DNA of 64,000 bases from an uncultured Kiloniellaceae bacterium (GTDB taxonomy: Bacteria; Pseudomonadota; Alphaproteobacteria; Kiloniellales; Kiloniellaceae). Under the pieces are notes generated by a model. That model did no database searches and was not told the DNA's origin. It saw only the letters and a list, made by a program, of their open reading frames with translations. Location of the stretch: positions 496,001 through 560,000 of the forward strand of contig CANLSF010000003.1 of assembly GCA_947493695.1 (NCBI GenBank). The letters are read 5' to 3'. Every line of letters starts with the position of its first letter. The stretch's first letter is position 1. The translations under genes were made by a program, and so were the position numbers. This document shows, piece by piece, positions 61,787 to 64,000 of this stretch.

Positions 61787-62671
61787 ATGATTGATGACCT
61801 GCGCGCCATTGCCATCTTTGCCGAATCAATCCGGCAGGGCTCCTTTCGGAGCGCCGCAAGGAAACTCGAGCTCTCCCCCTCCGTGGTCAGCTATCACATA
61901 TCGGAGTTGGAAAAACGTGTCGGCACGGCATTGATCTATCGCTCGACCCGCAAGCTATCCCTGACACACGAGGGCCAGCGGCTCTACGGTCATGCACTCA
62001 ATATGCTGATGTCTGCCGAACAGGGGCTGTCGGAGGTCTTTTCAAGTGGCGAGGACCTTCGTGGCAAGCTGACCATTGCGGCGACCTCCGCACTGATGCG
62101 TTCGCCACTCAACGATCAGATCGCCGCCTTTCACAAGCTCCACCCCAAGCTCGAGCTGAACATTTCCTATTCCGACATCAAGCAGGACCTGATCGCAGGC
62201 GGCATCGATCTCGCGGTGCGCGCCGGGCAGATGGAAGACAGTTCCCTGAAGACCCGACGCATCGGCCAGATCCGCCGTAAACTTGTCTGCGCACCTTCCT
62301 ATCTGAAGGAAAGAACACCGCCTGTGCGGCCAAAGGACCTGGAAGGCTGGAACTGGATCAGGCTTGAGATGATGCCCGGCTTCAGAACACTCCAAAAATC
62401 CGGGCGATCAGCAGTACAGTTGCGTCAGTCCGGCAGCATCTGCGTCGACAGCGCCGAAGCCATGACACAACTCTGCCTGCAGGGCTTGGGACTGGCCACG
62501 CCGCCGGACTACCTCGTCGAGCGGGAAATCGCCGCTGGGGCCCTCACCGTCATTCTTCCCGACTGGAGCGTCGAGCCCATGCCGCTCCATGCGGTCTGGC
62601 CCGATAACGTCGCCGCCAACAACAACACCAAAGCCCTGGTCGAGCACTTGGCACGTTTCGCGTGTAATTGA
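61787..62671 (+). CDS. LysR-family transcriptional regulator divergent from LysE exporter
   Basis: This 294-residue LysR regulator begins at ATG 61787 (MIDDLRAIAIFAESIRQGSFRSAARKLELSPSVVSYHISELEKRVGTALIYRSTRKLSLTHEG); an in-frame TTG 30 bases upstream is unlikely. The recognition part SPSVVSYHI differs from the commoner TPSAVS pattern. The effector domain has the CrgA-like shape (LTIAATSALMRSPLNDQIAAFHKLHPKLELNISYSDIKQDLIAGGIDLAVRAG). It is divergent from the LysE exporter, as in lysG-lysE pairs where the regulator senses the exported amino acid, though the protein is not close to LysG. A small hairpin follows the stop. Confidence 0.86.
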   Translation: MIDDLRAIAIFAESIRQGSFRSAARKLELSPSVVSYHISELEKRVGTALIYRSTRKLSLTHEGQRLYGHALNMLMSAEQGLSEVFSSGEDLRGKLTIAATSALMRSPLNDQIAAFHKLHPKLELNISYSDIKQDLIAGGIDLAVRAGQMEDSSLKTRRIGQIRRKLVCAPSYLKERTPPVRPKDLEGWNWIRLEMMPGFRTLQKSGRSAVQLRQSGSICVDSAEAMTQLCLQGLGLATPPDYLVEREIAAGALTVILPDWSVEPMPLHAVWPDNVAANNNTKALVEHLARFACN

Positions 62672-62696: not shown

Positions 62697-62960
62697 GAAC
62701 ACTATATCCAGCGCGCAACACACTCGGATGGAGCAAAGAACACCAAGTCTCGAAACACAAATTATATATTATTGTTTTATTTAATAATTTTTATCCTTAG
62801 TCAGTTCAAGACCACATAAAATCAAGTACTCCGGAGATACCGAAATAGAATCTCAAGAGCTTTCCTCTTGACCCTTTTCTCCAAATAAGGGAAAAGGCGT
62901 CCGAGGATTATATTGATGATGACTATTAACTTCCCCTTCGCGCCCGTACACACCCGATTC

Positions 62961-63100
62961 CATGCCGCGGTGTCTGAAGGCTATGGCTCAGACGTGTGCC
63001 CCAGGCATGCGGCTGGTAGCCTGTGCGAGTTGAGATTGATGTAACCTCATTTCACGTACAGCTATTCGAAGCCGCTTCCGTCCCGAAGCGGCTTTTTTTG
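62961..63100 (+). ncRNA. Candidate structured leader or small RNA upstream of RNA ligase
   Basis: I see an ordered set of possible helices: CATGCC (62961-62966) with GGCATG (63004-63009), enclosing GTCTGA (62972-62977) with TCAGAC (62988-62993); then GGCT/AGCC (63011-63021); then TGAG/CTCA near 63031-63049; then the terminator. GCGGCT (63009-63014) can instead pair with AGCCGC (63070-63075) of the terminator's 5' arm, which would make an antiterminator. The terminator lies directly before the ribosome-binding site of the ligase gene, so the RNA could be an attenuating leader or a small RNA with its own end. It matches no family that I can name. Confidence 0.4.
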
Positions 63101-63105
63101 TTTTT
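63069..63105 (+). terminator. Strong intrinsic terminator directly before the RNA ligase gene
   Basis: AAGCCGCTTC (63069-63078) and GAAGCGGCTT (63085-63094) pair around a 6-base loop and are followed by a run of T's with one G, ending at 63105. The GGAG ribosome-binding site of the ligase begins at 63106. It can end an upstream transcript or act as an attenuator. Confidence 0.9.
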
Positions 63106-63115
63106 GGAGTGTGTC

Positions 63116-64000
63116 ATGCAGCTTCCTATCGAGCATATCGACGATGTCCTACCTCATATCCCGAACAATGTCGGGATCGTCGTCTCTGAGCGTCCGGACG
63201 TCCGGATCATCGACTACGTCTTCACCACCGATGCAACCTTCGCCACCCCCATGGCGCGGGAATGCCGGGGTTTGAAGTTTGCGCTTGATGGCTCGATCCT
63301 CGCACGGCCGCTCCACAAGTTCTTCAATATCGGTGAGCAACAGAGTGCGGCGGACATCGACTGGACGCAGCCCCATGTGGTTCTGGACAAGCTGGATGGC
63401 TCTATGGTTCACCCCTGCTTCCTGAGCGAGCGGCTAACCTTCATGACCCGTATGGGGGAAAGCGGTCAGGCCAAGGCGGCACTGGACCATGCCGATGAGG
63501 CTGTCCTGCGGCTCAGCCGGGATCTGCTCCTGGAAGGAATGACGCCCGTTTTCGAGTTCACTTCGCCCGATCACCGGGTTGTTCTTGCGTATCCGGAGAC
63601 CTCCCTTACACTGATTGCTGTTCGGGAGACGGTAAGTGGAACCTACCTGAGTCATGCGGAGCTTGCACGGCTGGCCGAGCGATACTGCGTTCCCCTGGTC
63701 GCCCAGCTCGGCAGAGTCGAGGATGCCATGGCATTCATCGCGCGAGGCCGTAGTCTCACCGATGTCGAGGGTTACGTCATCGCCTTTGAGGATGGCCATC
63801 GGGTTAAGCTCAAGGCCGACGCTTATGTCCTGCGGCACAGGGCCCTTGCCGGTGTATCCAAGGAACGCAACCTGCTGGAGTGGATCGTCAAGGATGCCAT
63901 CGACGATGTCCTCCCCTTGCTGTCGGACGATATCGCACAGCAGGTGGCCGCATACCGGAATCAGGTCTACCAGGCTTTGGACCGGCATGTCGCAGCACTT
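63116..64000 (+). CDS. T4 Rnl1-type RNA ligase, 3' end beyond window
   Basis: The first 295 codons of an ATP-dependent RNA ligase are present from ATG 63116, six bases after GGAG. Nucleotidyltransferase motifs are in order: ECRGLKF (50-56), motif I KLDGS with Lys92 as the AMP-accepting residue, motif III FEFTSP (146-151), motif IV EGYVIAF (218-224) and motif V VKLKADAYVLRH (230-241). This pattern is that of T4 Rnl1-like ligases, which seal 5'-phosphate and 3'-hydroxyl RNA ends, often after tRNA damage. The C-terminal domain lies outside. Base composition is like the host. A strong terminator lies immediately upstream; end-healing partners may follow downstream. Confidence 0.85.
   Translation, partial: MQLPIEHIDDVLPHIPNNVGIVVSERPDVRIIDYVFTTDATFATPMARECRGLKFALDGSILARPLHKFFNIGEQQSAADIDWTQPHVVLDKLDGSMVHPCFLSERLTFMTRMGESGQAKAALDHADEAVLRLSRDLLLEGMTPVFEFTSPDHRVVLAYPETSLTLIAVRETVSGTYLSHAELARLAERYCVPLVAQLGRVEDAMAFIARGRSLTDVEGYVIAFEDGHRVKLKADAYVLRHRALAGVSKERNLLEWIVKDAIDDVLPLLSDDIAQQVAAYRNQVYQALDRHVAAL

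Follow-up and report, generated by a model that had tools for sequence, protein, structure and literature searches.

Background

In the leader of vmlR from Bacillus subtilis, an upstream open reading frame (uORF) is combined with an intrinsic terminator and an antiterminator, and a stalled ribosome switches the gene on (PMC9226507, available part). Attenuation depending on a uORF was also described for the duf1127 leader of Sinorhizobium meliloti, where it is proposed to monitor translation; according to the available part of that report, no functional intrinsic terminator is present and termination is thought to be Rho-dependent (PMC12218461). With respect to RNA repair, expression of the rsr-yrlBA-rtcBA operon, whose CARF-domain regulator RtcR binds tRNA fragments, answers damaged tRNA, which shows that damage of this kind can be coupled to repair genes via a route other than the one considered here (PMC7790460, available part). 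In case of the Pnkp1-Rnl-Hen1 system, ligase and Pnkp1 are encoded in one operon and assemble with Hen1 into a heterohexamer (PMC4411300, available part). In the literature, as far as covered, no attenuator was described for an RNA ligase gene. An expression switch of Rnl1-type ligases on bacterial chromosomes would tell what they respond to.

The window (i.e., the whole stretch of DNA analysed, 64,000 nucleotides from an uncultured Kiloniellaceae bacterium; contig CANLSF010000003.1, positions 496,001 to 560,000) ends within a gene for a T4 Rnl1-type RNA ligase. We propose, with a probability of about 0.65, that this stand-alone chromosomal ligase gene is controlled in cis by a transcription attenuator that is read by the ribosome, an early ribosome stall admitting RNA polymerase to the gene. 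The cis-attenuator part of this proposal, taken alone, is very probably correct.

The proposed arrangement resembles vmlR in its uORF, intrinsic terminator and antiterminator as well as in a stall turning the gene on, whereas vmlR encodes an ABCF antibiotic-resistance factor behind a predicted three-codon uORF, as compared to an ORF of 25–46 codons in front of an RNA ligase (PMC9226507, available part). Attenuation depending on a uORF in an alphaproteobacterium would be shared with duf1127, which differs in the gene concerned and, as far as the available text states, in having no functional intrinsic terminator (PMC12218461). A bacterial RNA ligase answering damaged tRNA, shown for rtcBA/RtcR and only deduced here, would be common to both cases; unlike the present locus, the former employs an RtcB ligase and a regulator protein, and the available part of the report mentions no leader ORF (PMC7790460). 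Pnkp1-Rnl-Hen1 likewise represents bacterial RNA repair with a ligase, but no partner gene adjoins the ligase gene studied here (PMC4411300, available part). If stalls or cleaved tRNAs trigger the attenuator, RNA repair would be wired to the ribosome, unlike the RtcR route, and the conserved leader makes a reporter test direct.

Identity of the RNA ligase

The ligase is matched by PF09511 (RNA_lig_T4_1) with an E-value of 4.6e-21 (76.1 bits; gathering score 28.3) and by T4 Rnl1 chains in the PDB with an E-value of 5.6e-34, confirming the sequence-only reading in its assignment of a T4 Rnl1-type ligase to a bacterial chromosome. As read from the ten rows of alignment A3, the catalytic motifs are intact: residues K92-D94-G95, E147, E218 and K231/K233, aligned to 2c5u, are invariant and represent the ligase motifs I (KxDG), III, IV and V of T4 Rnl1. 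The Rnl1 C-terminal domain PF20819 scored 26.7 bits (cut-off 27), and the C-terminal part of the predicted structure of relative L040 is all-helical. The best matches of this model (mean pLDDT 90.7) are 2c5u, 5tt6 and 9do4, i.e., T4 Rnl1 occupies the top three places, with TM values of 0.55–0.57 and an rmsd of 13–14.5, the latter being taken to reflect differing domain angles. TIGR02308 (T4 RnlA equivalog) yielded 142.5 bits, which is below the equivalog cut-off of 242.25 and indicates a distinct branch within the T4 Rnl1 family. The motif residues are shared with T4 RNA ligase 1 (Rnl1; PF09511, TIGR02308), and the helical C-terminal region and fold predicted for L040 resemble it, whereas the present ligase is chromosomal and stand-alone, has a putative attenuator of its own and is not adjoined by a polynucleotide kinase-phosphatase (PNKP) gene.

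The window's genome contains a single match to the ligase family and a single match to the leader. When the ligase alone was searched against the PADLOC models, only LeoA was retrieved (E 0.032), and none of the known anti-phage defence systems was matched.

Organization of the leader

The features of the leader and the ligase gene are compiled in Table 1. The upstream RNA between positions 62961 and 63105 has a minimum free energy (MFE) of -60.2 kcal/mol, as compared to a mean of -43.3 for shuffled sequences (z -4.45), and none of 200 shuffles was equally stable. The earlier description of a structured, terminator-ended RNA 5' of the ligase gene, with a T-run that touches the ribosome-binding site (RBS), is therewith borne out. 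Its extent was given as about 140 bases of pairing segments; the leader, however, begins before position 62961 and the short ORF had been missed, so that most of these segments fall within or just past a reading frame.

Table 1. Coordinates of the predicted leader elements and of the ligase gene in the window
Feature	Position	Strand	Basis or remark
Promoter-like element, -35 TTGACC and weak -10-like GAAAAG, 17-base spacing	62868..62896	+	Consensus scan; putative
Shine-Dalgarno GAGG of leader ORF	62903..62906	+	Sequence
Leader ORF of 42 codons with stop TAA and two possible ATGs	62916..63044	+	Equivalent ORF in 13/13 measured loci
Hairpin 1, within leader ORF, sequesters GCGGCT	62961..63015	+	MFE fold
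Putative antiterminator 5' strand (late leader ORF codons), core GCGGCT 63009-63014	63003..63028	+	Duplex with 63054-63080
Putative antiterminator 3' strand, overlaps terminator 5' arm (8/11 arm bases paired)	63054..63080	+	Duplex prediction
Intrinsic terminator, 11-bp stem 63068-63078 / 63085-63095, T-runs 63093-63099 and 63101-63105	63068..63105	+	Sequence, fold
Ligase RBS GGAG, abuts T-run	63106..63109	+	Sequence
T4 Rnl1-type RNA ligase, 374 aa, start ATG 63116	63116..64000	+	Ends about 240 bases past window end

A TTGACA, TTGACC or TTGATC box is located 48–55 bases 5' of the leader start in eight of the 13 leaders compared. The GAGG of the window recurs 9 bases 5' of the leader ORF start in L040, L042 and L043; a clear Shine-Dalgarno sequence for the leader ORF was not found in four leaders (L046, L047, L049 and L050). 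Since in L046, L047 and L049 a -10-like hexamer is present 12 bases 5' of the leader ATG, these three may be leaderless.

The sequence-only reading had likened the locus to rtcBA with an adjacent Y or tRNA-like RNA. This comparison is not upheld: the ligase is of the Rnl1 type, no tRNA was found in the window, no Rfam family came near its gathering score between positions 62600 and 63300 (best 24.9 vs 49), and the next three genes are unrelated.

Conservation of the layout

Of the initial 12 loci (the window genome and 11 loci from one scan of genome contigs), 11 have the succession of short ORF, terminator and ligase RBS, the exception being L048. Two further loci, L087 (close to L044) and L089 (a new group), matched a layout rule that had been fixed beforehand, with leader stops at -74 and -73 and terminators in place; these two terminators were judged by eye, while the other 11 were measured. 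By eye, L088 (same group as L089) has a similar leader, and it stands outside the 13 measured loci.

All 13 loci (the window and 12 relatives, seven sequence groups) possess a leader ORF of 25–46 codons, the stop of which lies 23–29 bases ahead of the terminator 5' arm. The end of this stop precedes the likely ligase start by 71–79 bases in ten loci and by 64–67 bases in the three Aurantimonadaceae loci L046, L047 and L049 (-64, -65 and -67), where a GTG/TTG located 12 bases before the first aligned codon was taken as the likely start. Shuffled upstream DNA gave a comparable ORF in 2.5–7.2 % (11 sequences), with a stop range that was chosen after seeing the data. In the orientation of the ligase gene, the survey covered upstream regions other than those of distant bacterial matches (such as L006-L009, L057, L065-L067, L069, L075, L085 and L086). 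Of the 29 viral loci, the upstream DNA of five was inspected by eye, and no terminator adjoining the ligase start was recognized.

A terminator-like hairpin 5' of a start codon is not rare: by a loose test, the window and L040-L050 contain 166 ORFs with a minimum length of 120 amino acids, and 27 of these have one. This would agree with the hairpin merely ending an upstream transcript, the ligase having its own promoter and the ORF being present by chance. However, the T-run touches the ligase RBS, so that a promoter could not be accommodated in between. Moreover, seven of the 27 also had a leader ORF and all seven were ligase genes, the combined layout being found with none of the 157 non-ligase ORFs of this control, and it recurs in 13/13 measured loci; this explanation is therefore highly improbable. 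Not captured by this control were the ligases of the window (open end), of L042 and L043 (where a longer antisense ORF had been retained) and of L046 (its start puts the ORF out of range).

At the level of sequence, the comparison shows the ORF, the stop-to-terminator spacing, the closeness of terminator and RBS, and a single ligase clade (see below). By contrast, RNA and peptide sequence of the leader vary from group to group. Selection on the leader peptide was considered and rejected, since its substitutions display no third-position excess: first, second and third codon positions account for 6, 9 and 9 changes between window and L040 (ligase: 30, 19 and 128), and for 11, 14 and 13 as well as 13, 13 and 6 in further comparisons. 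Translation of the leader is accordingly inferred from frame and geometry. Stops in the other frames were uninformative, as both alternative frames are free of stops in four of 11 leaders. Frame and spacing are kept while the peptide is not, as is expected for an attenuator.

These observations also bear on the possibility that a gene for a small RNA or a small protein, independent of the ligase and ended by a terminator of its own, is located 5' of it by chance, its product possibly serving as ligase substrate or guide. The stable fold (z -4.45) and the 3' end set by the terminator would suit such a gene, but all groups have the element in the same geometry with respect to the ligase without conserving its RNA or peptide sequence, which disfavours a separate structured RNA. 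Considering furthermore the differing neighbours among the groups, the single copy in the genome and the lack of an Rfam match near gathering score, this possibility is very unlikely. Of the RNA substrate or sensor that had been suspected at this position, the conserved element stands and is probably a sensor, whereas a separate substrate is not supported.

Leader peptides and amino-acid specificity

Classical attenuators of the trp/his type are amino-acid-specific. The architecture of the present leader is the same, which would be compatible with induction of the ligase when one particular aminoacyl-tRNA is short. In the leaders of the seven representatives, 15 Asn are observed vs 7.1 expected, and GNRN is common to the three Aurantimonadaceae leaders. 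Asn and Ala are above and Trp is below expectation in overall composition. Such specificity is nevertheless unlikely, because 11–18 different amino acids are present per leader, long runs of a single codon are missing and the peptides differ by group. With different leader peptides and no codon strongly concentrated, the leader is more likely to sense stalling in general than the supply of one amino acid.

Predicted antiterminator pairing and folding models

The window duplex formed by the two putative antiterminator strands (Table 1) has a predicted energy of -27.1 kcal/mol (z -3.45, p 0.003), and corresponding duplexes pair 6–9 bases of the terminator arm in 13/13 loci. Fisher's combined p for seven group representatives is 0.0006, 0.006 or 0.008 for three choices of representatives that have three members in common; taken alone, L050 (p 0.53), L045 (0.28) and L044 (0.25) are weak. 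When the arm alone was tested, pairing cores such as GCGGCT (window), TCCCCGG (L044), TCCAGG (L045), GGCTTG (L047), CCAGG (L050) and CTGGGC (L089) were obtained. Four groups (L044/L087, L045, L050 and L089) have the start of the longest complementary run 19–21 bases 5' of the stop end. When arms were swapped among groups, the own arm was best or tied best in three of seven rows, the window not being among these. Within clades, covariation, which had been proposed earlier as a check, is scant, with both sides changed in only 2/49 and 1/33 pairs of the consensus folds of two clades. Overall, the antiterminator pairing is supported, but more weakly than the comparison of ORF, spacing and terminator.

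Equilibrium folding as a function of ribosome position predicts a terminator probability of at least 0.8 throughout in seven of 11 sequences, including the window. In case of L049, the terminator drops to 0–0.3 with the ribosome at codons 4–13 and is retained (0.9) once the ribosome has reached codon 16; a switch is seen at three early codons in L046 and at five in L047, and L045 remains near 0.6 at every ribosome position but one. Folds calculated before the 3' arm exists display an early-stall switch in L046 and L047 and no clear one in the window. Placing the ribosome on the stop codon in these folds clearly reduces the pairing of the terminator arm with upstream sequence in only one of 11 sequences (L044) and increases it in L046 and L047, i.e., this model does not support masking by the terminating ribosome.

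The latter result would fit a Rho-assisted or initiation-monitoring attenuator of the S. meliloti DUF1127 type, in which C-rich early codons become accessible to a factor through leader translation and are masked when initiation is poor, the ligase answering a general ribosome shortage rather than stalling within the ORF. The uORF-then-gene layout in an alphaproteobacterium and the C-rich early codons of the window leader (CTTCCCCTTCGCGCCC) are in line with such a device. However, the sole candidate intrinsic terminator of the duf1127 leader was mutated without effect according to the available part of the report (PMC12218461), whereas 13/13 loci have one here. This type of control thus retains some, albeit small, probability.

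Proposed mechanism

According to the preferred reading, i.e., a ribosome-read attenuator relieved by early stalling, transcription would begin shortly 5' of the leader ORF. During free translation of this ORF, the terminator would fold and RNA polymerase would halt before the ligase gene; in this off-state, the antiterminator strand may be covered by a late ribosome, held by hairpin 1 or kept away by another factor. An earlier stall would leave the antiterminator strand free to pair with the terminator 5' arm, allowing read-through into the ligase gene. The stall as such would constitute the signal and may reflect damage to RNAs of the translation apparatus (cleaved tRNA and possibly also rRNA), the breaks then being sealed by the ligase.

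That RNA damage is the natural cause of stalling is tentatively suggested from the nature of the gene product. One may speculate further on a self-contained damage circuit with the ribosome as detector, in which tRNAs broken by ribotoxins or phage-triggered nucleases would stall ribosomes on a many-codon leader and thereby switch on the resealing ligase, requiring neither a regulator protein nor a dedicated RNA sensor; this extension is conceivable, though doubtful. In view of the stand-alone ligase gene, the broken RNAs may have 3'-OH and 5'-phosphate termini, for which no healing enzyme would be needed. Breaks of this kind are typical of PIN-domain toxins.

Genomic neighbourhood

Based on Pfam, the ligase gene of the window's genome is preceded by a LysR gene and followed by two genes for GNAT acetyltransferases and one for a DUF900 hydrolase, contrary to the expectation that partners of the ligase lie past the window end; the end-healing partner PNKP was not found among the adjoining genes. 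A PNKP gene (HAD_PNKP and AAA_33, Pfam) is present 5' of the ligase in L048, which has no leader element, and a PNKP-like gene was recognized by reading directly 5' of the ligase in the bacterial contigs L071 and L082, both without a leader attenuator. A prophage with T4-like neighbours, which had been named as a refuting case, accordingly does not apply, as PNKP is missing beside the ligase and PNKP-ligase cassettes occur in three relatives without a leader. Neighbours vary among the groups looked at (by eye and Pfam), e.g., a peptidase S49 gene is located 3' of the ligase in L044.

In L046 (Jiella), the attenuator-ligase unit is located between ruvA and ruvB (Pfam). In L049, ruvA precedes the unit (Pfam), and a RuvB-like motif follows it in L047 and L049.

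Distribution and evolution

Ligase matches are rare: the single-protein search retrieved 7/385 genomes of the class, and alignment A3 retrieved 4/61 of the order, 4/398 of the phylum and 2/17 in the family of G148. Further A3 matches amount to 9/111 in a Methylobacterium-like genus and 8/347 in its family, and to 5/151, 4/240 and 6/254 among relatives of other carriers, all these counts including repeats as well as distant or partial matches. No ligase match was obtained in G335, which belongs to the same genus as the window. None of 7 plasmid records and none of 1631 phage records reached 60 % identity.

In the ligase tree, a single clade (100/99) unites the 12 leader-bearing rows with six Methylobacterium-like rows and is separate from the viral and PNKP-linked ligases that were included. 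The tree comprises 39 of 41 rows (L029 and L031 being too short), among them 16 of 29 viral loci, L045, L064, L068, L082, L089, duplicates and distant matches being left out; the structure alignment comprises seven of the 29 viral loci. Within the leader clade, Aurantimonadaceae, which have the leader, branch first, so that the leader is probably ancestral.

Three of the six Methylobacterium-like loci, L060, L061 and L062, have an ORF of 28–34 codons ending with IRT-stop, the TGA of which overlaps the ligase start (ATGA or GTGA), and have no terminator; perhaps translational coupling takes the place of the attenuator. In the MFE folds of L060 and L062, the start region of the short ORF pairs with the ligase start (by eye), while L061 differs. 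The short ORF of L070 ends 37 bases before the ligase, and neither arrangement was seen by eye in L055 and L063.

L072, L073 and L074 represent a separate, divergent Rnl1-like group in one genus, with a long tree branch. Ligase genes that are interrupted by in-frame stops or have a split reading frame are found in L045 (558-1667), in L068 and L064 (G877) and in L082, which suggests decay or assembly error. The contig of L042 is titled Anaerolineae, yet its place equals G808 (genus of G148) and its ligase is 90 % identical to that of L043 (974/1080 bases); it is probably mislabelled.
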